DNA from: an uncultured Prevotellaceae bacterium
GTDB lineage: Bacteria; Bacteroidota; Bacteroidia; Bacteroidales; Muribaculaceae
Assembly (NCBI GenBank): GCA_900320245.1
Contig: ONRP01000010.1
Coordinates: 1 to 48,224 of the forward strand
Length of the DNA stretch: 48,224 bases
Reading direction: 5' to 3'
Shown: one piece after another, positions 3,296-48,078 of the stretch
Layout: each line of letters starts with the position of its first letter
Position numbering within the stretch: the stretch's first letter is position 1
Position numbers and translations under genes: made by a program
The notes under the pieces: generated by a model
What the model saw: the letters and a program-made list of their open reading frames with translations, nothing else
What the model was told of the DNA's origin: nothing
Database searches by the model: none

Positions 3296-3317
3296 AGATT
3301 AAAAGGCGACTACACGC

Positions 3318-3348
3318 TTGTTTTTACCAACGAATTTTCTTACCTTTG
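3318..3348 (+). promoter_or_regulatory. Promoter of the Cys-repeat/radical SAM operon
   Basis: TTG at 3318-3320 and TACCTTTG at 3341-3348 are 20 nt apart, a full match to the Bacteroidota housekeeping promoter. The first gene starts 31 nt after the -7 box. Confidence 0.85.
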
Positions 3349-3379
3349 TCATCAAGAAACTAAAGTCAGGAAAAATATT

Positions 3380-4042
3380 ATGGATAATCAGTCACGCAGA
3401 GATTTTATCAAGAAACTGGCCGCGCTGGTAGCGGCAGGTGTCGTGTCGCCGTCGGTGTTCTTCGGTGCCAAGGCGAGCGATGCGCCTGCTGGAGACCCGT
3501 CGGGTAAGGGCAACTGCTCGTCATCCTATGAGTGTGCCGGCGGCAACGGCAAGTGCGGCTCGGCCTACAATTGCAGCGGTCAGGGCACCAACGGCCAGGG
3601 CAAATGCGGCTCCTCCTATGAGTGTGCCGGTGGCGGCGGCAAGTGCGGCTCGGCCTACACTTGCTCAGGACAGGGTGCCGAAGGACAGGGCAAGTGCGGC
3701 TCCTCCTATGAGTGCTCGGGCGGTAACGGCAAGTGCGGCTCGGCCTACAACTGCACAGGACAGGGTGCCGAGGGTAAGGGCAAGTGCGGCTCTTCCTATG
3801 AGTGCGCCGGTGGCGGCGGCAAGTGTGGCTCGGCCTACACTTGCGCCGGACAGGGTGCCGAGGGCCAAGGCAAATGCGGGTCCTCCTACGAGTGCGCCGG
3901 TGGCGGCGGCAAGTGCGGCTCGGCCTACACTTGCGCCGGACAGGGTGCCAACGGACAAGGCAAGTGCGGCTCTTCCTACGAGTGCGCCGGCGGTGGCGGC
4001 AAGTGCGGCTCGGCTTACCAGTGTCCCGGACAGTCCCGATAA
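3380..4042 (+). CDS. Tat-exported Cys/Gly-rich repeat protein, probable substrate of the adjacent radical SAM enzyme
   Basis: The 220-residue protein begins with a twin-arginine signal: SRRDFIKK at 5-12 followed by a moderately hydrophobic stretch to about residue 30 and a cleavable AKASDAP region. Residues 44-220 are six near-identical 30-residue units, the last shortened to 27. Each unit has two CX5C modules, GKCGSSYECAGGGG and KCGSAYTCAGQG followed by a linker such as AEGQ. There are 24 cysteines, all within CGS(S/A)YxC modules (SSS in the first). Composition is almost only Gly, Ser, Cys, Ala, Tyr, Lys and Gln. The radical SAM gene starts 9 nt after the stop, so the pair is surely co-transcribed. 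I infer a multi-core modified peptide precursor whose cysteines, and perhaps tyrosines, are modified before Tat export. A metal-binding envelope protein is the main alternative. The function is not known to me. Confidence 0.85.
   Translation: MDNQSRRDFIKKLAALVAAGVVSPSVFFGAKASDAPAGDPSGKGNCSSSYECAGGNGKCGSAYNCSGQGTNGQGKCGSSYECAGGGGKCGSAYTCSGQGAEGQGKCGSSYECSGGNGKCGSAYNCTGQGAEGKGKCGSSYECAGGGGKCGSAYTCAGQGAEGQGKCGSSYECAGGGGKCGSAYTCAGQGANGQGKCGSSYECAGGGGKCGSAYQCPGQSR
3509..4039 (+). repeat. 90-bp tandem repeat, six copies (last copy 81 bp)
   Basis: In-frame units begin at 3509, 3599, 3689, 3779, 3869 and 3959. Units 4, 5 and 6 differ from one another at very few bases; unit 1 is the most diverged (GNCSSS instead of GKCGSS). 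Each unit is itself an internal duplication of a CX5C module of about 45 bp. Confidence 0.93.
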
Positions 4043-4051
4043 ACCAATTCC

Positions 4052-5332
4052 ATGGTCAAGTATCAACTGCCTGAACAGGTACAAGTGTTCCAGCGGGGCG
4101 ACAAGTATGTCTTCATCAACCCCCTGCTGCCCGCCTGGGTCGTCACCAACGAGTTAGGCCGGCTGATCATGTCGCAGTTCGATGGCGACAACACCATCGA
4201 TGACATCGTGGATGCCGCCTGCCAAATCCTGGGCGAGGACAAGCGTGACGAAGTCACGGCCTTCTGCCGGCACGTCGTCGATTCCTCCATCTTTGAAACC
4301 GCACCTCACCCGCAACGACCTCGCGACGCAGGACTGCACTGCGTGCATCTGTCACTGTCAAGCGGCTGCAACCTGCGCTGCAAGTACTGCTATGCCGCCG
4401 AGCGCATCGAGAGCCGATATGCTCCGCTCACGCTCGACGAGTATAAACAGGTAATAGATGGGCTGTGTGACCTGTCCAGCCACCTGAGCGTCACCATCAC
4501 GGGCGGCGAGCCGTTGCTTAACCCGTTGTGGCAGCCCGTGTCGGCCTATTGCAAGGCCAAGGGCTGCACCGTGCTGCTGTTGACCAACGGCACGCTCATC
4601 GACGAGGACAATATCGGGTTTATCCAGGAAACCTTCAATCTGGTCACCCTGAGCATCGATGGTCCCACACGCGAGACGCACCGCCTGACACGCGGCGACA
4701 ACTTCGACCAGGTGATGCGCGCCGTGGACCTGCTGGAACGCCACGGCATTGATTACACGCTGTCGATGACCGTCACCCGCCTGAACATCGACCAGGTGGA
4801 AGCGATGGCCCGCCGGTTTGGCGGCCGGCTGAATTATGCCCCGCTGTTCCCCGTGTCGGACCTCGCCGAGGACCAACTGTCCATCACCGGCCGTCAATAC
4901 TACGACGCGCTAGCAAGTGCCTTCGGGGTGAACCCGCTGGGATACTGCGAGAGTTCACTTGACGTGTCGAAGTGTATCCAGACCCGCAAGTGCGCCATCG
5001 GCGACAACGAAATCAGCATCTCGCCCACGGGCGACGTTTACCCCTGCCAATTGCTGCACATCGACCAGTTCCTGGCAGGCAACGTGCACGAGCGGAGCAT
5101 CCAGGAAATCTACCGCGACTCCCCTGCCCTGCAGCATTGTGCCGACCTGGATGTGGACCATATCGAGAAATGCAGCGACTGCGCCATCCGCTACATCTGC
5201 GGCGGTGCCTGCCGCGCCCGCGGCTACTACGAGACGGGACGCATCGACGGGACGGGCGACTTCTGCGACTACGAACTCAACGCCTTTCTCGACGGCATCG
5301 TCAAAATCTATTCAGCCAATCTGCTGCAATAA
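4052..5332 (+). CDS. Radical SAM/SPASM peptide maturase with N-terminal PqqD-like recognition domain
   Basis: The 426-residue protein starts 9 nt after the repeat-protein stop. Residues 1-85 are PqqD-like, with NPLLPAWVVTNELGRLIMSQ then DGDNTIDDIV; this is the RiPP recognition element that binds leader peptides. The radical SAM core follows, with CNLRCKYC giving Cys106, Cys110 and Cys113 for the SAM-binding 4Fe-4S cluster, TGGEPLLNP at 150-158 and SIDGPTRETH at 201-210. The C-terminal SPASM region supplies further cluster ligands: Cys308, Cys314, Cys332, then Cys374, Cys377, Cys383, Cys387 and Cys405 in CSDCAIRYICGGACR and FCDYE. SPASM maturases with auxiliary clusters install thioether or carbon-carbon links in peptides. 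The neighbour with 24 cysteines is the obvious substrate. It acts in the cytoplasm, before Tat export. An anaerobic sulfatase-maturing role is less likely because no sulfatase is near and a PqqD domain is present. Confidence 0.9.
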   Translation: MVKYQLPEQVQVFQRGDKYVFINPLLPAWVVTNELGRLIMSQFDGDNTIDDIVDAACQILGEDKRDEVTAFCRHVVDSSIFETAPHPQRPRDAGLHCVHLSLSSGCNLRCKYCYAAERIESRYAPLTLDEYKQVIDGLCDLSSHLSVTITGGEPLLNPLWQPVSAYCKAKGCTVLLLTNGTLIDEDNIGFIQETFNLVTLSIDGPTRETHRLTRGDNFDQVMRAVDLLERHGIDYTLSMTVTRLNIDQVEAMARRFGGRLNYAPLFPVSDLAEDQLSITGRQYYDALASAFGVNPLGYCESSLDVSKCIQTRKCAIGDNEISISPTGDVYPCQLLHIDQFLAGNVHERSIQEIYRDSPALQHCADLDVDHIEKCSDCAIRYICGGACRARGYYETGRIDGTGDFCDYELNAFLDGIVKIYSANLLQ

Positions 5333-5354
5333 CAAACTTAGGAGATACAGAAAA

Positions 5355-5393
5355 GACAGGCAAGTCCCGGAATCCGGTACTTGCCTGTCTTTA
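5355..5393. terminator. Bidirectional intrinsic terminator
   Basis: An 11-bp stem (5355-5365 with 5379-5389) is followed by TTTAT on the plus strand and by TTTT on the minus strand. It closes the radical SAM operon and also lies downstream of the minus-strand DUF3332 gene. Confidence 0.8.
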
Positions 5394-11312: not shown

Positions 11313-11320
11313 CAAAGGTA
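11313..11320 (-). promoter_or_regulatory. Promoter -7 box of thioesterase-dprA unit
   Basis: TACCTTTG on the minus strand, 24 nt before the ATG at 11288. It decides the thioesterase start. Confidence 0.75.
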
Positions 11321-11376
11321 ATGAAAAAAGCGTGAATCGGCAAGTGCGGAGCCTGCACCTTTTGCCGCAAGACGAA

Positions 11377-32751: not shown

Positions 32752-32782
32752 TTGCCGATTCAAATTTCTTTCACTACCTTTG
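32752..32782 (+). promoter_or_regulatory. Promoter of dockerin-like gene
   Basis: TTG (32752-32754) and TACCTTTG (32775-32782) are 20 nt apart, 38 nt before the ATG at 32821. Confidence 0.82.
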
Positions 32783-33758: not shown

Positions 33759-34241
33759 ATGAAACGTATTATATTTCTTTTTGTCGCCCTGACGATGCTC
33801 GCTTGCGGCAGCAGCGCTTTAGCACAGGATAACAACGAATCCATCAAACTACTCAAAGAACTAGCCCAATCAGGAGATGCCTACGCACAAGGTCTCCTAG
33901 GCTATTGCTATGAGGTGGGAGAAGACGTGCCACAAAGTTATACCGAGGCCGTCAAGTGGTACAGAAAAGCGGCTGAACAAGGAGATGATCTTGGTCAATT
34001 CTCATTGGGCGATTGCTATGCCCGAGGGCAAGGAGTGACACAAAGTTACACCGAAGCCATCAAGTGGTATCGCAAGTCCGCTGAGCAAGGAAATGAATTT
34101 GCTCAAGAGCGTATGGGCTATTGCTATGAAAACGGCTATGGGGTCAAAAAGGACAAACAGGAGGCCGTCAAGTGGTACAGAAAAGCAGCCAATCAGGGGA
34201 ATGAATCAGCCAAAAAGAGCCTGAAACGGCTGGGATATTGA
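33759..34241 (+). CDS. Short Sel1-repeat protein (three repeats)
   Basis: The 160-residue protein has a signal peptide (MKRIIFLFVALTMLACGSSA; both a LACG lipobox and an ALA-Q cleavage site are possible). A partial repeat is followed by three full 36-residue Sel1 repeats of the form AQxxxGYCYxxGxGVxxxxxEAVKWYRKAAEQG, then a capping KKSLKRLGY. Sel1 repeats are TPR-like helix pairs that mediate protein contacts. It lacks the linker and PEGA-like domain of the following genes, so it is the simplest member of the array and heads the first Sel1 transcription unit. Confidence 0.88.
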   Translation: MKRIIFLFVALTMLACGSSALAQDNNESIKLLKELAQSGDAYAQGLLGYCYEVGEDVPQSYTEAVKWYRKAAEQGDDLGQFSLGDCYARGQGVTQSYTEAIKWYRKSAEQGNEFAQERMGYCYENGYGVKKDKQEAVKWYRKAANQGNESAKKSLKRLGY

Positions 34242-34291
34242 CAATATCCACTGATTAAGACACCATTGAATAAATCACAATTAACCTTTCT

Positions 34292-35674
34292 ATGAGGCGA
34301 ATTATTTCTATCTTGTTAACATTGGCGCTGATGGTCGGCGGCACTGCTGTGGCACAGGTTCAGATACAAGGCGGGCCTATCAAGCCGCCCATCCCGCCCG
34401 CCAAACAACGACAAAAGCCGAAAAAGAAGGCCCGGCCAAAAAAGCAGGTCAAGCTCAAGAGTGGTTCACACCGGGTTAAGGTGGTTACCGATTACTACAA
34501 CGACTGCTCGACGACCATCAATGTCAGCAGCAGTAAAAAGTCCTTCGACCTGACGCTGACAGAAAAGACCGATGCCGAATCCCAGTTCCAGCTGGGCATC
34601 AACTACTATGAAGGTCGCTCAGGCTTCCCACAAGACTATACAAAAGCCGCGAAACACTTCCACAAAGCGGCAGAACAAGGAAATGCAAATGCACAATGCA
34701 ATCTTGGCTACAGCTATCATAAGGGGCTGGGAGTGACACAGAATTATACCGAAGCCGTAAAATGGTACCAAAAAGCCGCTGAACAGGGAGATAGTATTGC
34801 TCAAATCAATTTAGGATACTTGTACTTAACAGGAGAAAGCGTGCCACAAGATTTTAGCGAGGCTATCAAGTGGTACCGCAAAGCAGCTGAACAAGGTTCT
34901 GAGGAAGCTCAATTATGTTTGGGAATATGCTATACTTTAACGCAAAATTACTCCGAAGCTGAAAAATGGACCAAAATGGCTGCAGAACGAGGATATGCCA
35001 TGGCTCAGTATTGGTTGGGATCATTTTATCAAGATCGGCTCATAGACCTCTGTGAAGCCGCTACATGGTACAAGAAAGCAGCAGAGCAAGGTTTATACAT
35101 AGCACAAAAAGAATTAGGTGGTTGTTACTATCTTGGAAAAGGTGTTACTCAGGATTACACCGAAGCGGCAAAGTGGTTCCGTAAAGCAGCAGAACAAGGG
35201 GATGCCGAAGCACAAAACCGCTTGGGTGTCTGCTATTTTTTAGGCAATGGAGTAAAACAAAGTGATGTCGAAGCAGCAAAATGGTATCAAAAAGCCGCTG
35301 AACAAGGCGATGTACAAGCGCAATTTAACTTAGGATACTGCTATGAAAACGGACTTGGCGTGACAAAGAGTTACACCGATGCTGCTAAATGGTACAAGAA
35401 AGCTGCAGAACAAGGAGACGCCACAGCTCAAAACAATTTAGGCATGTGTTATTATTTAGGCAATGGGGTAACGCAAAGCTACACCGAAGCCGTCAAATGG
35501 TGTCTAAAAGCCGCAGAGCAAGGCAAAGCCTCAGCACAATTTAATATGGGTTATTTCTACGAACAAGGCTATGGGGTAACTCAAAATCGTACGGAAGCAG
35601 TCAAATGGTATCGCAAAGCCGCTGAACAAGACTTTCAAGAGGCTAAAGAGGCACTATCAAATTTGGGATATTGA
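34292..35674 (+). CDS. Sel1-repeat protein with truncated PEGA-like domain
   Basis: The 460-residue protein has a signal peptide (SILLTLALMVGGTAVAQ), a Gln/Pro/Lys-rich linker (GGPIKPPIPPAKQRQKPKKK) and only the second half of the PEGA-like domain. The text jumps from PKKQVK straight to LKSGSHRVKVVTDYYND. Compared with the gene at 39309 about 30 codons are missing, in frame. Ten Sel1 repeats follow (about 90-450) with a capping EALSNLGY; repeats 4 and 5 are shortened or irregular. It is exported to the periplasm or outer surface. The first 130 nt of its linker region are nearly identical to the gene at 37460. Partner unknown. Confidence 0.85.
   Translation: MRRIISILLTLALMVGGTAVAQVQIQGGPIKPPIPPAKQRQKPKKKARPKKQVKLKSGSHRVKVVTDYYNDCSTTINVSSSKKSFDLTLTEKTDAESQFQLGINYYEGRSGFPQDYTKAAKHFHKAAEQGNANAQCNLGYSYHKGLGVTQNYTEAVKWYQKAAEQGDSIAQINLGYLYLTGESVPQDFSEAIKWYRKAAEQGSEEAQLCLGICYTLTQNYSEAEKWTKMAAERGYAMAQYWLGSFYQDRLIDLCEAATWYKKAAEQGLYIAQKELGGCYYLGKGVTQDYTEAAKWFRKAAEQGDAEAQNRLGVCYFLGNGVKQSDVEAAKWYQKAAEQGDVQAQFNLGYCYENGLGVTKSYTDAAKWYKKAAEQGDATAQNNLGMCYYLGNGVTQSYTEAVKWCLKAAEQGKASAQFNMGYFYEQGYGVTQNRTEAVKWYRKAAEQDFQEAKEALSNLGY
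34324..34453 (+). repeat. 130-nt 5' cassette shared with 37492-37621
   Basis: Bases 34324-34453 match 37492-37621 at 129 of 130 positions by hand alignment. They encode the end of the signal peptide and the Pro/Lys linker. The match stops exactly at the deletion junction in both genes. Confidence 0.88.
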
Positions 35675-35699
35675 TGACTATTGTATTGATATGGGTTTT

Positions 35700-37421
35700 A
35701 TGAAACGATTGAATTGGATTTTGGTGGTGCTGGTGCTGATGATTGGAAGCAGTGCTGTGGCACAGATTCAGATTCCCGGCGGCCCCATCAAGCCGCCCGT
35801 ACCGCCTGTTAAAACCAGGACAAAACCTAAGGCTAAGACCAGGCCCAAAAAGACGACCACGCAGATAGTCAAATACTATGACGTGACGTTCACCAGCAAC
35901 GCCTATGATGGCGACCTGTATATCGACGGCGAATACATCGGCGATGCCAACACCACATGGACACTCAAAAGTGGTTCACACAAAGTGAAAGTAATCACCG
36001 ACTACTATAACGACTACTCGACGACGATCGACGTCAGCAACAGCAACAAGTCCTTTAATCTCAACCTGACCGAGAAAACCGATGCCGAATCACAATACCA
36101 ACTGGCCGTCAACTATTACGAAGGCCGCTGTGGTTACTCACAGGATTACAACGAGGCTGTCAAACGCTTCCGCAATGCGGCCGAAAAGGGGAACGCGTCT
36201 GCACAATTTTGGTTAGGTTTCTGCTATGACCGCGGACGTGGGGTTTCACAGAGTTACCCCGAAGCCATTAAATGGTATCAAAGAGCAGCGGAACAAGAAA
36301 ACGCATCTGCACAGAACAATTTGGGCGTTTGCTATCAAGAGGGACTTGGGGTGACCAAAGATTGCAACAAAGCCGTCAAATGGTACCGAAAAGCGGCTGA
36401 GCAAGAAAACGCCTCCGCGCAAAGCAAATTGGGCTATTGCTATTTTATTGGCCTTGGCGTGACCAAAGATTACAACGAAGCCGTCAAATGGTTTAGGAAA
36501 GCAGCAGAGCAAGGAGAAATATCCGCGCAAAACAATTTGGGCGTTTGCTATCAAGAGGGACTTGGCGTGACAAGAGATTACAACGAGGCTGTCAATTGGT
36601 ACCGAAAAGCGGCCGAGCAAGGATCTACCGCTTCGCAAAACCAATTGGGCTTTTGCTATCATCATGGGCTTGGTGTAACTCAAGATTATTCTAAGGCTGT
36701 TGAGTGGTATCGAAAAGGGGCCGATCAAGGAGATTCCTCTGCGCAAAACCAATTGGGCTTTTGTTACCATGAGGGACTTGGCGTGACAAAAGATTACAAC
36801 GAGGCGATCAAATGGTACCGAAAAGCGGCCGAGCAGGGAAACACCTCAGCGCAAAACCAACTGGGCGTTTGCTATCATTATGGGCTTGGAGTGACGAAAG
36901 ATTACAACGAAGCCGTCAAATGGTACCGAAAAGCGGCTGAGCAAGGGGATCCCTCTGCACAAAACCAATTGGGCGTTTGCTATCAAGAGGGACTTGGCGT
37001 GACCAAAGATTACAACGAAGCCGTCAAATGGTATCGAAAAGCGGCTGAGCAAGGAGTGGCCAGTGCTCAATACAACTTGGCCTCATGTTACTTTAATGGC
37101 CAAGGTGTAACGCAAAGTCATACTGAGGCTGTCAAATGGTTTAGAAAAGCGGCTGAGCAAGGCCTTGCCAATGCACAATGTGGTTTAGGTTATTGCTACC
37201 TAAATGGCCAAGGCGTGAAAAAAGACAAAAACGAAGCAGTCATATGGTTTAGAAAAGCGGCTGAGCAAGGGAATGCAACTGCACAAAACAATTTGGGGGC
37301 TTGCTATGAAGATGGTAACGGAGTGAAGAAAGACAAGCAGGAGGCCGCCAAATGGTACCGAAAGGCCGCCGAGCAAGGCCATGCTGGCGCAAAAGCAGCA
37401 TTGTCACGGCTGGGGTACTGA
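35700..37421 (+). CDS. Sel1-repeat protein with PEGA-like domain (12 repeats)
   Basis: I place the start at 35700 (MKRLNWILVVLVLMIGSSAV) by comparison with the paralogues; an ATG at 35691 adds three residues. After the signal come QIQIPGGPIKPPVPP and a basic linker, then a complete PEGA-like domain (KYYDVTFTSNAYDGDLYIDG, GSHKVKVITDYYNDYSTTID), and 12 Sel1 repeats of 36 residues with the cap ALSRLGY. Repeats 3-9 are almost identical (GVCYQEGLGVTKDYNEAVKW), also in DNA, which points to recent expansion by unequal exchange. An exported scaffold role is likely from the fold; no catalytic part is seen. Confidence 0.88.
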   Translation: MKRLNWILVVLVLMIGSSAVAQIQIPGGPIKPPVPPVKTRTKPKAKTRPKKTTTQIVKYYDVTFTSNAYDGDLYIDGEYIGDANTTWTLKSGSHKVKVITDYYNDYSTTIDVSNSNKSFNLNLTEKTDAESQYQLAVNYYEGRCGYSQDYNEAVKRFRNAAEKGNASAQFWLGFCYDRGRGVSQSYPEAIKWYQRAAEQENASAQNNLGVCYQEGLGVTKDCNKAVKWYRKAAEQENASAQSKLGYCYFIGLGVTKDYNEAVKWFRKAAEQGEISAQNNLGVCYQEGLGVTRDYNEAVNWYRKAAEQGSTASQNQLGFCYHHGLGVTQDYSKAVEWYRKGADQGDSSAQNQLGFCYHEGLGVTKDYNEAIKWYRKAAEQGNTSAQNQLGVCYHYGLGVTKDYNEAVKWYRKAAEQGDPSAQNQLGVCYQEGLGVTKDYNEAVKWYRKAAEQGVASAQYNLASCYFNGQGVTQSHTEAVKWFRKAAEQGLANAQCGLGYCYLNGQGVKKDKNEAVIWFRKAAEQGNATAQNNLGACYEDGNGVKKDKQEAAKWYRKAAEQGHAGAKAALSRLGY

Positions 37422-37459
37422 TAACTACTGCATCTATCAACAAAAACATAGTGAGTATT

Positions 37460-39024
37460 ATGAAACGATTGAATTGCATTTTGGTAGCGGTGGCGCTGAT
37501 GGTCGGCGGCACTGCTGTGGGACAGGTTCAGATACAAGGCGGGCCTATCAAGCCGCCCATCCCGCCCGCCAAACAACGACAAAAGCCGAAAAAGAAGGCC
37601 CGGCCAAAAAAGCAGGTCAAGATGCCGACCTGTATATCGACGGTGACTATGTGGGTGATGCCAATACCATCTGGACCTTGAAGGCCGGCTCGCACGCCGT
37701 CAAGGTGGTCACCGACTACTACAACGACTACTCGACCACTGTCAATGTCATCGGCAACAAGTCCTTCGATCTCAACCTCACCGAAAAGACCGATGCCGAA
37801 TCGCAATATATGCTGGGCGTCAACTACTACGAGGGTCGCTCCGGTTTCCCGCAAAATTATACTGAGGCCGTCAAGCGTTTCCTCAACGCCGCCAACAAGG
37901 GGCATGCCAAGTCGCAAAACCATTTAGCATACTGCTATTACAATGGTTTCGGCGTCTCACAAAATTATTCAGAAGCCGCCAAGTGGTATCGAGAAGCAGC
38001 AGAGCAGGGACTTGCTAATGCTCAACGCCACCTGGGTTGGTGCTATGAAAATGGCCATGGGGTGACACAAAGTTATACTGAAGCCGTTAAATGGTACAGA
38101 GCCGCTGCAATACAAGGAGATGCGTGGGGGCAACATAATTTGGGTGTTTGCTATGCCAACGGCCGCGGAGTGACAAAAGATTACACTGAAGCCGTCAAGT
38201 GGTACCGAAAAGCAGCAGAACAAGGGAATGCCTCTGCACAATGCAACTTGGGTTGGTGCTATTACAATGGCAATGGAGAGACGCAGAGTTATTCCGAAGC
38301 CGTTAAGTGGTACCGAAAAGCAGCAGAACAAGGGGATGCCACTGCACAACGCAATTTGGGTTGGTGCTTCGAAGCAGGTAACGGAGTAACACAAGATAAA
38401 ACCGAGGCAGCCAAATGGTACCGCAAAGCAGCAGAACAGGGGGATACTGAAGGTCAATGCAGTTTGGGTTACTGCTATGAAGCAAGTATAGGTGTGACAC
38501 AAAGTCACACAGAAGCAGCCAAATGGTACCGCAAAGCAGCCGAACAGGGACATGCCAGAGCGCAATACAATTTGGGTCGGTGCTATGAAGCAGGAAACGG
38601 AGTATCACAAGATAAAACCGAAGCAACTAAGTGGTACCGCAAAGCCGCAGAACAAGAATATGCTTGGGCACAAAACAAATTGGGTTGGTGTTATTTCAAC
38701 GGCAATGGAGTGACACAAAGTTATACCGAAGCCGTTAAATGGTTACGCAAAGCAGCAGAACAAGGGAATGCTCCAGCGCAATGCACCCTGGGCTACTGCT
38801 ACGAGAAAGGACTTGGTGTTACAAAAAGCGAAACAGATGCCATCAAGTGGTACCGAAAAGCAGCAGAACAAGGAGATGCCGATGCGCAACAAAATATGGG
38901 CGTATGCTATGAACTGGGCATTGGTGTGAAAAAGGACAAACAAGAGGCCGTGAAGTGGTACCGCAAAGCAGCGGAACAAGGTAATTCTTCTGCCAAAAAC
39001 AACCTAAGACGGTTGGGTTATTAA
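37460..39024 (+). pseudogene. Frameshifted Sel1-repeat gene with PEGA-like domain
   Basis: The signal and linker (MKRLNCILVAVALMVGGTAV, then GGPIKPPIPPAKQRQKPKKK) are read in one frame from 37460 and stop at 37681. The body (DADLYIDGDYVGDANTIWTL, then 11 Sel1 repeats and RRLGY) is open in another frame from 37621 to 39024. The break at 37620/37621 is a 34-nt deletion relative to the gene at 39309. The body is otherwise intact, with protein-like text and no further stops, so the lesion is recent, or it is an assembly error, or a recombination state. Without repair no signal peptide is attached to the body. Confidence 0.82.
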
Positions 39025-39096
39025 ACGCAGTCACTTGGCATCTGGAACTATGCAAGGTATCTATCGATCAAGCGCAACAGGTGCAATCATCTGAGT

Positions 39097-39141
39097 CTTG
39101 CCCGCTAACCAGATGCTGGTCGGCGGGCAAGGCTCGTTTTT
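39097..39141 (+). terminator. Terminator of the first Sel1 unit
   Basis: CTTGCCCGC (39097-39105) pairs with GCGGGCAAG (39123-39131), with an inner ACCA/TGGT pairing, and is followed by GCTCGTTTTT. Confidence 0.8.
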
Positions 39142-39230
39142 GCCTTTGGGCCCAATATCATATGGTTTGTCATCGTCGGAATTCATTTTATACATTAACT
39201 AGGGTATTTCATCCAAAAAGGCATCATTTA

Positions 39231-39263
39231 TTTGGCATAAATGTTCACGAAGTGATAACTTTG
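39231..39263 (+). promoter_or_regulatory. Promoter of the second Sel1 unit
   Basis: TTTG (39231-39234) and TAACTTTG (39256-39263) are 21 nt apart, 45 nt before the ATG at 39309. AAATGTTCACGA overlaps the spacer. Confidence 0.75.
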
Positions 39264-39308
39264 CAGCATCGAACTCAAGAAATAATAATCCATAAAACTT
39301 AATACATC

Positions 39309-40910
39309 ATGAAACGAATTACTTCTATCTTGCTAACCTTGGCGCTGATGCTTGGTGGCAGCGCTATGGCACAAATCCAGATTCCCGGCGGCGCCATCAA
39401 GCCGCCCGTGCCCCCTGTCAAACAACGACTGAAACCCAAAGCCAAGGCCAGGCCGAAAAAGCAGGTCAAATACTACGACGTGACCTTCAACTGCAACGCC
39501 CCCGATGCCGACCTGTATATCGACGGCAACTTCGTGGGCGACGCCAACATCATTTGGACGCTCAAGGCCGGCTCCCATGCCGTCAAAGTGGTTACCGACT
39601 ACTATAACGACTACTCCACCACCGTCAAGGTCAGCAGTAGCAACAAGTCCTTCGACCTCAACCTGACCGAGAAAACCGATGCTGAATCACAGTTTCAAAT
39701 TGGTATCAACTATCACGAAGGGCGCTCGGGCTTCCCGCAAGACTATGATCAAGCCCTAAACTATTTTGCTATGGCGGCAGAGAAAGGATATGTTCCGGCG
39801 ATAACCTGGATTGGTTACTGCTTTAAAACAGGCCATGGCATCACGCAGGATTTCCAAGAGGCCGTCAAATGGTTCACCTTGGCCGCCGAACAAGGGAATT
39901 CTGCTGCACAAAACAATTTAGGCCACTGCTATCAATTTGGTTTGGGTGTAGAAAAAGATTACGCTAAAGCCATAGAATGGTACCGCATGGCCGCCTATCA
40001 AGGCTATGCCAGTGCACAAAACAATCTGGGCTTCTGCTATGAAGAAGGGTGGGGAGTCGCACAAGATTACGACGAAGCCTTCAGATGGTATATGAAAGCC
40101 GCCAATCAAGGCAACACTACTGCGCAAGACAATATTGCACAATGCTATAAAAGAGGCCATGGTGTGCCCAAGAATTATACCGAGGCCGTCAAATGGCACC
40201 GTATGGCGGCAGAACAGGGAAGCGCTGTTGCACAAAACAACTTGGCTATGTGCTATGAAAATGGTGTCGGTGTGGAGAAGGACTACGACATGGCTGTTTA
40301 CTGGTACCAAAAATCAGCAGATCAAGGAGCCGTCGGTGCCATACACAACTTGGGTATGTGCTACTTTTTGGGCCATGGCGTTCCACAAAGTTACTTCGAG
40401 GCTGCTATGCGGTTCAGGGAAGCAGCAGAACAAGGCTATGCCTCCTCCCAGTATATGCTCGGCTACTGCTTTGAAGCCGGCCTCGGTGCTGAACAAAACT
40501 ACACTGCTGCTGTCAAGTGGTATCGCAAAGCAGTCGAACAGGGACACGCTAATGCACAGAACAACCTAGGTAACTGCTATTATGCCGGCAGAGGCGTTAC
40601 CCAGAGTTACACCGAGGCTGTCGAATTGTTCCGAATGTCGGCTAAACAAGGCAACCCCCCAGCACAATGCAACCTGGGCAACTGCTATTTTGAAGGCAAA
40701 GGTGTGAAAAAGGACAGGAAAGAGGCTGTCAACTGGTTCTACCAGGCCGCCGCCAAAGGTCACGCCGAAGCCCAGTATAGGTTGGCAGACTGCTATCATC
40801 ATGGATATGGTGTGAAAAAGAATAAGCAAGAAGCCATCAACTGGTACCAAAAGGCGGCCAATCAAGGTTATGCCAAAGCGGTATCATCTCTTAGAGAACT
40901 AGGAAATTGA
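39309..40910 (+). CDS. Sel1-repeat protein with complete PEGA-like domain (11 repeats)
   Basis: The 533-residue protein. Signal MKRITSILLTLALMLGGSAM, then QIQIPGGAIKPPVPPVKQR, an intact PEGA-like domain (YYDVTFNCNAPDADLYIDGN then GSHAVKVVTDYYNDYSTTVK), TEKTDAESQ and 11 Sel1 repeats ending SSLRELGN. Repeats are more diverged than in the gene at 35700. It is the first gene of the second unit, with its own promoter, and provides the best reference for the deletions in the genes at 34292 and 37460. It is exported; function inferred only as a protein-contact scaffold. Confidence 0.88.
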   Translation: MKRITSILLTLALMLGGSAMAQIQIPGGAIKPPVPPVKQRLKPKAKARPKKQVKYYDVTFNCNAPDADLYIDGNFVGDANIIWTLKAGSHAVKVVTDYYNDYSTTVKVSSSNKSFDLNLTEKTDAESQFQIGINYHEGRSGFPQDYDQALNYFAMAAEKGYVPAITWIGYCFKTGHGITQDFQEAVKWFTLAAEQGNSAAQNNLGHCYQFGLGVEKDYAKAIEWYRMAAYQGYASAQNNLGFCYEEGWGVAQDYDEAFRWYMKAANQGNTTAQDNIAQCYKRGHGVPKNYTEAVKWHRMAAEQGSAVAQNNLAMCYENGVGVEKDYDMAVYWYQKSADQGAVGAIHNLGMCYFLGHGVPQSYFEAAMRFREAAEQGYASSQYMLGYCFEAGLGAEQNYTAAVKWYRKAVEQGHANAQNNLGNCYYAGRGVTQSYTEAVELFRMSAKQGNPPAQCNLGNCYFEGKGVKKDRKEAVNWFYQAAAKGHAEAQYRLADCYHHGYGVKKNKQEAINWYQKAANQGYAKAVSSLRELGN

Positions 40911-40957
40911 TTCTCTTGTCTCTTAATTATGTCATAGATTAATTGCTATCATAACGT

Positions 40958-42769
40958 ATGATGAAACGATTGAATAACATCTTGGTTGCGTTGGCGCTAA
41001 TCGTATGCGGCAGTGCTATAGGACAGATTCAGATTCCCGGTGGGCCCATCAAGCCGCCCGTTACGCCAAGGCAGGCTAATCCGCCTAAGACGCAAAAGCC
41101 GCCTATGTCACCCAAATTCAAGTACTATGACGTGACATTCACCTGCAACGTCCCTAGTGCAGACCTGTTCATCGACGGAGAAAACATAGGTTGGATACAC
41201 AGAACACAAGAATTGAAACTGACGGCTGGTTCGCATGTGGTTGAATTGTACTCGAGTTATTATAACGACTTTTCTTCCACTATCAACGTGAGTACCAACA
41301 ACCAGTCCTTCCACTTCGACTTAATCGAGCAAACGGATCGTAATTCACAGTCTATCTTGGGCTTCTATTATTATGAGGGCAGTTATGGCTACCCTCAAGA
41401 TTATGCCAAGGCAGTCGAGCACTTCCGCAACGCCGCTGAACAAGGAGACATCTACTCACAGGTCAATTTGGGTCTATGTTATGAAAAGGGCCGTGGCGTG
41501 GCACAGGATTATGCCGAGGCGGTCAAGTGGTATCAAATGGTGGCAGATGAGTTTGATCACATTCCAAACAAGTTAGGAGAATTCTATGAGAAGGGCCTGG
41601 GTGTGACACAAAGTTACTCCGAAGCCGTCAAGTGGTACCGAAAAGCCGCAGACCGGAGAGAGGTTACCGCACATAGCAGTTTGGGCAGGTGCTACTTTAA
41701 ACTACAAGATTATACCGAGGCTATCAACTGGTATGAAAAAGCCGCCGAAAAGGGTGACGCTGATGCGCAAAACAATCTGGGTTATTGCTATTGTAATGGT
41801 TTAGGAACAGAATATAGTAATCATGATGTTATAGGCGCCAAATGGTATCTTAAAGCAGCAGAACAAGGACATCCCGGAGCACAATACAACTTAGGATACT
41901 GCTATGAGCATGGTGATGGAGTGAAAACCGATTATTCTGAAGCCCTCAATTGGTACCGAAAAGCAGCAGAGCAGGGAATAACATTGGCTTATTATCAGTT
42001 AGGTTACTTCTACACCTACGGCTTGGGTGTGGAGCAGAACTATACCGAAGCCGCCAACTGGTTCAGGAAAATCACAGAACAGGAGAAAGTTGACACCATT
42101 TACAATTTAGGCAGTAAAGACGAAAAGTTATCTGATTACATTGATGCCGCTGGATGGTTTCTAAAAGCCTTAGAACAGAATGATGCAGAAGCGCAATGTA
42201 ATTTGGGAGATTTCTTCTCACGGGGACCATATCTGCATCATCCCCATGCCAATGCCAATGAATGGTATCGAAAAGCGGCTGAACAAGGTAATGCCAGGGC
42301 TCAATGCCGATTAGGCGACAAACTCTATTGGTCTTATATGCCTAGTGAAACAGAAAAACAGGAGGCATTCGAATGGCACAAAAAATCCGCTGAACAAGGG
42401 TATGATGAGGCACAATATCAAATGGGAGAGTATTATCACAGTGGGAGCATGGTGAAGAAAAGTGATGCAGTGGCTGCCGAATGGTATCTAAAAGCGGCTG
42501 AACAAGGTTATGGTAATGCCCAATACGAAATAGCCGAACTTTATAAAGAGGGAAAAGGCGTGAAAAAGGACAAGCAAAAGGCAATCTATTGGTACCGTAA
42601 AGCCGCAGAACAAGACAAATGTATCAGGCAATCTTACGCACAATACGAATTAGGTTGCATTTATGAAAAGGGCTGGGGTGTTGAAAAGGATCTCACCGAA
42701 GCCGTAAAGTGGTACCAAAAGGCTAACAATGCCAAGGCTGAAGAAGCCTTGAAGCGGCTAGGATATTGA
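40958..42769 (+). CDS. Sel1-repeat protein with divergent PEGA-like domain (about 13 repeats)
   Basis: The 603-residue protein; translation may start at the second ATG (40961). Signal MKRLNNILVALALIVCGSAI, linker GGPIKPPVTPRQANPPKTQK, then a PEGA-like domain that differs from the others (CNVPSADLFIDGENIGWIHR, LKLTAGSHVVELYSSYYNDF). About 13 Sel1 repeats follow, several of unusual length (32 to 40 residues), with the cap EALKRLGY. It is the largest and most diverged member. It lies between two other Sel1 genes with gaps of 47 and 28 nt (to 42798), hence the same operon. Confidence 0.86.
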   Translation: MMKRLNNILVALALIVCGSAIGQIQIPGGPIKPPVTPRQANPPKTQKPPMSPKFKYYDVTFTCNVPSADLFIDGENIGWIHRTQELKLTAGSHVVELYSSYYNDFSSTINVSTNNQSFHFDLIEQTDRNSQSILGFYYYEGSYGYPQDYAKAVEHFRNAAEQGDIYSQVNLGLCYEKGRGVAQDYAEAVKWYQMVADEFDHIPNKLGEFYEKGLGVTQSYSEAVKWYRKAADRREVTAHSSLGRCYFKLQDYTEAINWYEKAAEKGDADAQNNLGYCYCNGLGTEYSNHDVIGAKWYLKAAEQGHPGAQYNLGYCYEHGDGVKTDYSEALNWYRKAAEQGITLAYYQLGYFYTYGLGVEQNYTEAANWFRKITEQEKVDTIYNLGSKDEKLSDYIDAAGWFLKALEQNDAEAQCNLGDFFSRGPYLHHPHANANEWYRKAAEQGNARAQCRLGDKLYWSYMPSETEKQEAFEWHKKSAEQGYDEAQYQMGEYYHSGSMVKKSDAVAAEWYLKAAEQGYGNAQYEIAELYKEGKGVKKDKQKAIYWYRKAAEQDKCIRQSYAQYELGCIYEKGWGVEKDLTEAVKWYQKANNAKAEEALKRLGY

Positions 42770-42797
42770 ATACCAATCTTTAAACAAGATGAAGAAT

Positions 42798-43892
42798 ATG
42801 AAACGATTGAATTGCATCTTGATTGCGCTGGCGCTGATAATTGGCAGCAGTGCTGTGGGACAGATCCAGATTCCCGGAGGGCCCATCAAGCCGCCCGTGC
42901 CGCCTGCAAAACAGCGACAAAAGCCGAAAAAGCAGGCCAGGCCCAAAAAGGCGGCCCAGGCAACAGTCAAGTACTATGATGTAACCTTCACCTGCAATGC
43001 CCCCGATGCCGACCTGTATATCGACGACGACTATGTGGGCGATGCCAACACCATCCAGGCGCTCAAGGCAGGCTTGCATACAGTGAGAGTTTTCACCGAC
43101 TACTACAACGACTACTCGACCACCATCAATGTCAGCAGCAACAACTCTGTCGACCTGCCGCTGACCGAGAAGACCGATGCCGAATCACAATATCAACTGG
43201 GTATCAACTACTACGAGGGCCGCTCTGGTTTCCCGCAAGACTATACCCAAGCCGCCAAACGATTCCTCAACGCCGCCAACAAGGGCGATGCTGAGGCACA
43301 AAATTGGACAGGCTACTGCTATCATCATGGCCGCGGAATGGAGCAGAGTGACGAGCAAGCCGCTAAATGGTATCAAAAAGCGGCTAACCAAGGCCTTGCC
43401 GCTGCCCAAAACAACATTGGCTACTGCTACATGAAAGGCCTTGGCGTGAAACATGACAACGCCGAAGGGCTGAAATGGTACCTGAAAGCAGCCGAACAAG
43501 GGTATGCCGAAGCCCAAAACAATTTGGGTGACTATTACCTCACCCAAAATGATAGGGAACTCGCCTTCAAGTGGTTTTCCAGGGCAGCGAGCCAAGGTGA
43601 CGCTATGGGACAGTTTAACCTGGGCTTCTGCTATGAGCGAGGTATTGGAGTCGATGCTGACTTTAGAGAAGCGTTTAAACTGTTCAAGCAAGCGGCCGAG
43701 CAGGGCAATGCCGATGCACAACACTGGTTAGGCTACTGCTACGAAGAAGGTTACGGCACCTCCCGCAGTGACGATGAGGCCGCCAAGTGGTACCAAAAGG
43801 CTGTCGATCAAGGTGTGGTCGAGGCTCAAAAGGGATTGGATCGAATTGAGAAAAGGAAGAACGCGACAGTGCGCATCACCAGGAAATTCTAA
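42798..43892 (+). CDS. Sel1-repeat protein with PEGA-like domain (six repeats)
   Basis: I use the ATG at 42798 (MKRLNCILIALALIIGSSAV) by analogy; an ATG at 42789 adds three residues. After QIQIPGGPIKPPVPPAKQRQ and a basic linker comes an intact PEGA-like domain (CNAPDADLYIDDDYVGDANT), TEKTDAESQYQ and six Sel1 repeats. It ends differently from all others: instead of the usual xLxRLGY cap it has GLDRIEKRKNATVRITRKF, a basic tail. It is the last gene of the second unit. Function unknown beyond export and protein contacts. Confidence 0.87.
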   Translation: MKRLNCILIALALIIGSSAVGQIQIPGGPIKPPVPPAKQRQKPKKQARPKKAAQATVKYYDVTFTCNAPDADLYIDDDYVGDANTIQALKAGLHTVRVFTDYYNDYSTTINVSSNNSVDLPLTEKTDAESQYQLGINYYEGRSGFPQDYTQAAKRFLNAANKGDAEAQNWTGYCYHHGRGMEQSDEQAAKWYQKAANQGLAAAQNNIGYCYMKGLGVKHDNAEGLKWYLKAAEQGYAEAQNNLGDYYLTQNDRELAFKWFSRAASQGDAMGQFNLGFCYERGIGVDADFREAFKLFKQAAEQGNADAQHWLGYCYEEGYGTSRSDDEAAKWYQKAVDQGVVEAQKGLDRIEKRKNATVRITRKF

Positions 43893-47974: not shown

Positions 47975-48078
47975 CAGTTAACAGATAACAGTTAACAGAT
48001 AATAGTTAACAGTTGTCTGCTGACGGTGACACACTCCGGAGGAAAACAAATCAACTGTTCACTGTTAACTGTTCAATT
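47975..48078. repeat. AACAGTTAACAGAT-type direct and inverted repeat
   Basis: Copies of CAGTTAACAGAT in tandem (47975-48014) face CAACTGTTCACTGTTAACTG (48052-48071), so the gap between the MoxR and DUF58 genes can fold into a hairpin. No terminator T run is seen. Function unknown. Confidence 0.6.

Follow-up and report, generated by a model that had tools for sequence, protein, structure and literature searches.

Introduction

Radical S-adenosylmethionine (SAM) enzymes that act on a Cys-containing substrate encoded beside them are known from the sactipeptide and ranthipeptide systems, with the maturases StsB, CteB and PapB. Here we describe a gene pair of this arrangement in a 48,224-nt stretch of contig ONRP01000010.1 from an uncultured Prevotellaceae bacterium (the window, to which all window coordinates refer; its own genome is G000). 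An enzyme that shares the radical SAM core and SPASM region of those maturases, and probably also their N-terminus, which resembles the recognition element (RRE) of ribosomally synthesized and post-translationally modified peptides (RiPPs), is encoded next to a Cys-rich repeat protein, and its closest solved fold is CteB. Unlike the substrates of those systems, the putative substrate here is 220 aa long, has 12 loops that share one geometry and carries a twin-arginine translocation (Tat) signal.

Other systems share single traits with the pair. QhpD, a radical SAM enzyme, installs Cys-Asp and Cys-Glu thioethers in the gamma subunit of quinohemoprotein amine dehydrogenase (accessible text of PMC8326336). 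As far as that text goes, the likeness is that the substrate is a protein rather than an antibiotic. The gamma subunit contains single loops within a dehydrogenase and is not known to carry a repeat array, and in this it differs from the window pair. In TvgA/TvgB, one radical SAM-SPASM enzyme modifies a repeated TVGG motif in its partner, as the window enzyme may do; the product there is cyclopropylglycine on Val, and the accessible part of PMC9062424 mentions no Cys loops or Tat leader. Bufferins and Buf_EGKCG/oxazolins are Cys-rich precursors, some of them long, that are modified by multinuclear non-heme iron-dependent oxidative enzymes (MNIOs); one family has a repeated EGKCG, and a signal peptide replaces the typical leader, as in the window pair (accessible part of PMC12452194). 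According to the same text, however, they rely on Sec, an MNIO with a partner protein and a variable repeat number, whereas the window pair has a Tat signal and a radical SAM/SPASM enzyme.

No NCBIfam or Pfam family among those shown names the pair. We recognised no description of it in the literature, including the accessible text of PMC10352776, PMC12452194, PMC9062424 and PMC8326336; searches for a radical SAM RiPP with "Tat signal" or "CX5C" found none, and no Tat leader on a natural radical SAM precursor appeared in titles and the opening lines of abstracts. These searches mostly did not cover subscription journals, and because of this poor coverage the absence is not proof. Our best reading of the sequences is a radical SAM-RiPP system with a Tat signal as leader, and they suggest an undescribed family of chemically stapled export proteins. 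What is new is the combination of a Tat leader, a fixed loop count and a radical SAM/SPASM maturase.

Results

The repeat protein and the enzyme occur, and decay, together

The features of the window locus are as follows.

3380..4042, + strand: repeat protein gene (putative substrate), 220 aa, with a Tat signal leader and 12 CX5C modules
3380..3511, + strand: leader of the repeat protein, with the Tat motif SRRDFIKKL, then a hydrophobic stretch and FFG-x-K, up to the core
3515..4024, + strand: core of the repeat protein, six CX5C-X6-CX5C module pairs, 90-nt tandem unit
4052..5332, + strand: radical SAM/SPASM maturase gene, open reading frame (ORF) of 426 aa
4052..4291, + strand: RRE-like (PqqD-like) N-terminal domain, residues ~1-80, placed by the AlphaFold2 model, the alignment to CteB and a PqqD match below cut-off
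3318..3348, + strand: putative promoter TTG-N20-TACCTTTG, presumably of Bacteroidota type, with the 20-nt spacing fitted here
5353..5391, + strand: terminator hairpin; a 61-nt stretch folds at -30.6 kcal/mol, z -7.0

The repeat gene lies directly upstream of all 15 intact family enzymes with readable upstream sequence, namely those of 11 genus genomes (G117 and G063 included), of loci L046 and L047, and of genomes G603 and G559; the count is 15 of 16 if G651 is added, whose locus (L211) is left out of the family count. Within the genus, the enzyme was found at E <= 1e-60 in 12 of 101 genomes and the repeat protein at E <= 1e-6 in 11. Both genes are complete in nine (G000, G009, G010, G016, G024, G076, G081, G093 and G109); those of G117 and G063 are cut by contig ends, yet the 3' end of the repeat gene sits in place. 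In two relics both genes are damaged and most of each is lost: in G122 (L032) a leader stub runs into a 3' fragment of the enzyme gene, and in G029 a leader stub is followed by decay, with no enzyme match. The decayed copies in related genomes lie at L032 and L043. An intact repeat protein without the enzyme was found in none of the 101 genus genomes and none of 98 genomes of a different class of the same phylum, and neither gene was found in 294 other sampled genomes of the order, so the repeat protein was never seen intact without a radical SAM gene, a separation that the preliminary description had named as evidence against its proposal. We conclude that the two genes very probably form an enzyme-substrate pair.

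The strict association with an RRE-like SPASM enzyme, and the decay of both genes together, also bear on whether the product is a periplasmic metal- or redox-binding Cys protein, with disulfides or bound metal, whose enzyme makes a non-linking change (epimerisation or oxidation) or acts elsewhere. Its 24 Cys and Gly-rich chain would suit such a role, and its repeated GKCG is reminiscent of the EGKCG units in copper-binding oxazolins, although these are Sec-exported and modified by another enzyme class (accessible text of PMC12452194). Given the pairing, we regard this explanation as quite improbable.

Both genes are under purifying selection (dN/dS 0.04-0.15). Across six genome pairs, of which two approach saturation at synonymous sites, the enzyme had a dN/dS of 0.058-0.123 and the repeat protein one of 0.035-0.154, the value of 0.035 coming from the comparison of the window with G016.

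Beyond the genus, the pair is intact in L046 and L047 and, in the different class, in G603 and G559, where the enzyme was found in 2 of 98 genomes and the repeat protein in the same two; the G603 enzyme is ~40% identical to that of the window. The enzyme was absent from 394 other sampled genomes of the class and matched in 3 of 394 others of the phylum: G603, G559 and G651. We take the G651 enzyme to belong to a different family; at its locus (L211, enzyme at 1351-2874) a 285-aa protein and an ABC transporter gene, labelled by eye, flank the enzyme. This patchy distribution suggests transfer and loss.

Among the best 80 of 271 loci on bacterial contigs, L044-L049 are at least 48% identical to the window enzyme; L044-L047 have repeats, and contig starts truncate L048 and L049. 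L044 and L045 look like genomes G016 and G010 and were counted once. The remaining 74 reach no more than 38% identity, and none of them has an ORF that passes the Cys-repeat filter; a closer look at L050, L056, L059, L064 and L081 showed no CX5C array. L030, L027, L048 and L049 were not treated as complete precursors, as their contigs end there; that of L049 begins 131 nt ahead of the match and has a stop in frame. Alignment A2 and the trees leave out L032, and the precursor tree is mostly unresolved. A phage origin was rejected: the 80 viral-contig loci compared, of 88, are 22-26% identical where the match exceeds 200 residues, with up to 48% only over ~50, and no ORF in those 80 loci passes the Cys-repeat filter. 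On plasmids, 229 records match, all below 60% identity, and the top of the five listed (L216) reaches 29%.

A Tat signal precedes the repeats

The leader scores 26.6 bits against the NCBIfam Tat signal model TIGR01409 (cut-off 16.7), a model that 11 of 13 precursors match at E <= 0.1; against the shorter Pfam model TAT_signal it scores 15.1 bits, below the cut-off of 22.7. SRRxF is present in all 13 precursors, with S5, R6, R7, F9 and K31 invariant, and FFG-x-K in all 11 main-group rows but not in L209 and L210. The Tat component TatC is encoded in G000 (E 4e-61), in 48 of 48 good genus genomes and in 93 of 101 overall. With a signal above the TIGR01409 cut-off and a Tat system in the genome, the leader is of the Tat type, as first described, and it is highly likely, though predicted from sequence, that the repeat protein is exported by Tat.

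The repeat protein has a fixed number of loops of one geometry

All 24 Cys of the window protein lie within its 12 CX5C modules, and its DNA forms a 90-nt tandem array of 5.5 copies (Tandem Repeats Finder score 675); no inverted repeat was found in window 3300-4100. The preliminary description had given every module as CGS(S/A)YxC. The number of modules and of Cys stands, whereas the motif holds in 11 of 12, the first being CSSSYEC. Across 13 complete precursors, comprising 11 of the main group (the nine genus genomes, L046 and L047) plus G603 and G559, all 142 modules are CX5C. Within a module pair, the step is 13 residues in all 71 cases; steps between pairs are 17 (43 cases), 19 (9), 22 (3) and 13 (3). 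In alignment A7 the G076 row lacks its first residues. A comparison of module pairs by position was uninformative, with same-position identity barely above that of other positions, and a search with the sequence profile of the repeat protein gave no match among solved chains at E <= 0.01.

Despite varying linkers, each of the 11 complete precursors of the main group has exactly 12 modules, and this holds in three members with enzymes just 46-58% identical to that of the window. Near-identical repeats are expected to change in number by slippage; the constant count therefore suggests selection for one defined protein. The precursor had at first been described as multi-core. From such a RiPP, proteases would free many small loops that might serve, for instance, as a bacteriocin or signal. 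Tandem modules that are nearly identical and joined by Gly-rich linkers are what such a RiPP would look like, and the other-class precursors G603 and G559 have 4 and 6 modules; but the fixed count in the main group points to one intact protein, the repeat protein is under purifying selection, and no constant protease, immunity or ABC export gene was seen by eye in flanks of ~1.5 kb (5 kb for L047). We consider a multi-core precursor unlikely.

The enzyme resembles peptide maturases

The window enzyme passes the Pfam cut-offs for Radical_SAM (96.2 bits, cut-off 29.5) and SPASM (PF13186, 39 bits, cut-off 21.5), and Radical_SAM is matched in all 11 family members at E <= 0.1. The radical SAM motif CxxxCxxC is C106/C110/C113, which agrees with the initial assignment. 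In place of the eight SPASM-region Cys reported there, we count 10 Cys from residue 299 onward, seven of them invariant in the 11-member family alignment. All 11 members retain C314-X12-G327-X4-C332, C374-X2-C377-X5-C383-X3-C387 and C405, which follows what we take to be the SPASM motif, CX9-15GX4C ... CX2CX5CX3C ... C.

The closest solved protein is CteB, both by sequence (109 bits) and by fold, which supports the proposed resemblance to peptide maturases. The AlphaFold2 model of the N-terminus forms an EEE-HHH block with a predicted local distance difference test score (pLDDT) of 88-94. The enzyme model aligns to TigE from residue 1 and to CteB (5why) from residue 7; because 378 aligned residues fall within 7-421, at least 44 of residues 7-87 are aligned to CteB in this comparison, which used the model of the whole enzyme.

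The next closest solved protein is the anaerobic sulfatase-maturing enzyme, which raises the question of sulfatase-type formylglycine formation on Cys or Ser. The anaerobic sulfatase maturase model (TIGR03942) gives 105.7 bits against a cut-off of 349.45, so that the enzyme is not a sulfatase maturase; a clear orthologue of one would, by the preliminary description, have counted against its proposal. Moreover, the loops lack C/S-x-P/A-x-R, which we take to be the usual sulfatase target motif. Formylglycine formation is thus very improbable.

The top NCBIfam model is that of the sactipeptide maturase StsB (NF045574), which matches all 11 members; the window enzyme scores 173.6 bits, below the cut-off of 625. 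The models of the SCIFF/CteB ranthipeptide maturase (TIGR03974; 96.4 bits, cut-off 425) and PapB (99.9 bits, cut-off 340) also score below cut-off. We rejected assignment to a named radical SAM family, as the best 25 of 99 listed NCBIfam models are all under their cut-offs.

Loop residues and the cross-link

Gly occupies loop position 2 in 131 of 142 modules; the remaining 11 have Ser there, and 10 of these are first modules. Among the non-Cys loop positions, conservation is highest at position 5, which is aromatic in 138 of 142 modules: 124 Tyr, 8 Phe (six of them in G559) and 6 Trp. The Trp all belong to L046 (34-687), in which Tyr modules (CGSSYxC) alternate with Trp modules (CGSAWxC or CGSSWEC). 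The four non-aromatic exceptions all occur in G603, whose modules are CGIGAGC, with just Gly, Ile and Ala between the Cys.

Such conservation would be expected if the enzyme linked the aromatic residue (Tyr, Trp or Phe) to the Cys two places on, as a three-residue cyclophane, or to the first Cys, and in the 12 precursors besides G603 it keeps such a reaction in contention. The four G603 modules, however, have Ala at position 5 and are served by an enzyme ~40% identical to that of the window. Because these modules lack any aromatic residue, Tyr as the general cross-link site, suggested when the locus was first described, is excluded, and we consider an aromatic linkage unlikely.

The chemistry that we instead favour, with slightly better than even confidence, is the formation of Cys thioethers. 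If a thioether is made in G603, its acceptor must be a backbone (alpha) or aliphatic carbon, since the loops hold only Gly, Ile and Ala; such an acceptor would fit StsB, a sactipeptide maturase, as the top NCBIfam model, which lends weak support.

Transcription signals and neighbourhood

The two ORFs lie on the same strand with a 9-nt gap. The motif at 3318-3348 follows TTG-N20-TAnnTTTG, which we take to be the Bacteroidota promoter consensus. The motif occurs nine times in the window against 0.36 expected by chance, and for this reason it probably marks a promoter class of the source genome; other copies lie, for example, at 1239-1269, 11313-11343 and 32752-32782. A sigma70 scan found no + strand promoter and also missed the terminator at 5353-5391. 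Given the motif and the hairpin, one promoter and one terminator for the window pair are plausible, as first proposed, and the gap is as described; the layout does not extend to relatives in general. The motif recurs upstream of the pair in G009, G010 and G109, and its -7 part alone in G081, but it was not found in the 130 nt upstream in G016, G024, G093, G076 and L047 (for L046, just 36 nt are readable). In G016, G024 and G093 the pair begins 10-11 nt past the corA stop without the motif, so the single-operon layout is not general. At loci L010, L011 and L025, with the pair 10-11 nt after corA and no promoter motif of its own, transcription may read through from corA. Strong hairpins follow the pair in G016, G024, G093 and G117 (100-nt folds, without a shuffle control).

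In the window, the pair is flanked by CorA and DUF3332/transglycosylase. Pfam scans of 10 window proteins identified CorA, DUF3332, SLT/SBP, CTP_transf_1 and PNP as neighbours and no MNIO gene; the flanks of relatives were inspected by eye only, and no MNIO search covered other parts of the genome. In relatives, with labels assigned by eye on what we take these genes to be, corA precedes the pair in G016, G024 and G093, the DUF3332 side is common to G016, G024, G117 and G109, and a presumably esterase-like gene takes the place of that neighbour in G009, G010 and G081. L046, L047, G603 and G559 have other neighbours; the flanking genes thus differ between groups.

Elsewhere in the window, a series of proteins with Sel1 repeats occupies 33759-43892; they have internal repeats of 108 bp, and several resemble one another at the N-terminus. 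Sel1 was confirmed by Pfam in the two proteins scanned, and genes judged Sel1-like by eye are also the immediate upstream neighbours of the pair in L209 and L210. The ORF at 1275-2249 weakly matches an IS200-like transposase, at 20 bits against a cut-off of 23, and possibly encodes a REP-associated transposase. A CAGTTAA tandem repeat (7 bp, 5.7 copies) lies near the window end at 47975-48014.

Discussion

Taken together, the pairing, the Tat-type leader, TatC, the enzyme fold class, the repeat geometry and purifying selection underlie a model that we consider probable, wherein stapling of the CX5C loops by an RRE-type maturase takes place in the cytoplasm, before Tat exports the whole protein. 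The RRE-like domain of the maturase would bind the repeat-protein leader, a stretch that doubles as the Tat signal. The radical SAM core would then take H atoms from loop residues and the Cys sulfur would add, with help from auxiliary clusters, closing the loops one after another along the chain by Cys-centred cross-links, most likely thioethers to a neighbouring residue. Tat takes pre-folded cargo. Release of the leader would let Tat carry the stapled protein out whole, and this single protein with its fixed loop number would function at the surface or in the periplasm. The steps that we infer are the binding of the leader, the type of chemistry, the sequence of modification and export, and the protein staying whole.

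Several observations weigh against this model. Ordinary disulfides formed after export would explain CX5C as well, and no acceptor can be named because no non-Cys loop position is invariant. The PqqD match of the window enzyme, at 17 bits, is below the cut-off of 23.4 and is seen in 4 of 11 members at E <= 0.1, and the fold comparison barely tests the enzyme model outside residues 88-409. The enzyme is below cut-off for all of the 25 best NCBIfam families; the likeness to StsB is weak support, since it falls well short of the cut-off and the model of heme b synthase likewise matches 11 of 11 members. AlphaFold2 gave no reliable model for the repeat protein (pLDDT 50), and TatC was not found in the pair carriers G016, G076 and G117, which are 75-83% complete. 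Finally, no repeat gene was found in the 4.3-kb G651 locus, whose enzyme barely passes E <= 1e-60 (207.8 bits vs 428-429 for G559/G603).

Because the 12 loops have one geometry, and one enzyme would make many turnovers per substrate, the chemistry and its direction should be easy to follow by mass. The preliminary description proposed a loss of 2 Da per link as support; this alone is no proof of a cross-link, because a disulfide gives the same mass change.

More broadly, we tentatively propose a family made up of whole proteins as opposed to peptides: a radical SAM enzyme would recognise their Tat signal as a RiPP leader and staple a fixed CX5C array before export. Such a family would be the radical SAM counterpart of the periplasmic bufferins, possibly serving in metal or redox buffering. 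If this is true, one peptide stretch would be both the enzyme-recognition leader and the Tat signal, and modification would be coupled to export, with Tat binding possible only once the RRE lets go. Radical SAM stapling would then build a conserved protein of fixed repeat number, and not an antibiotic.

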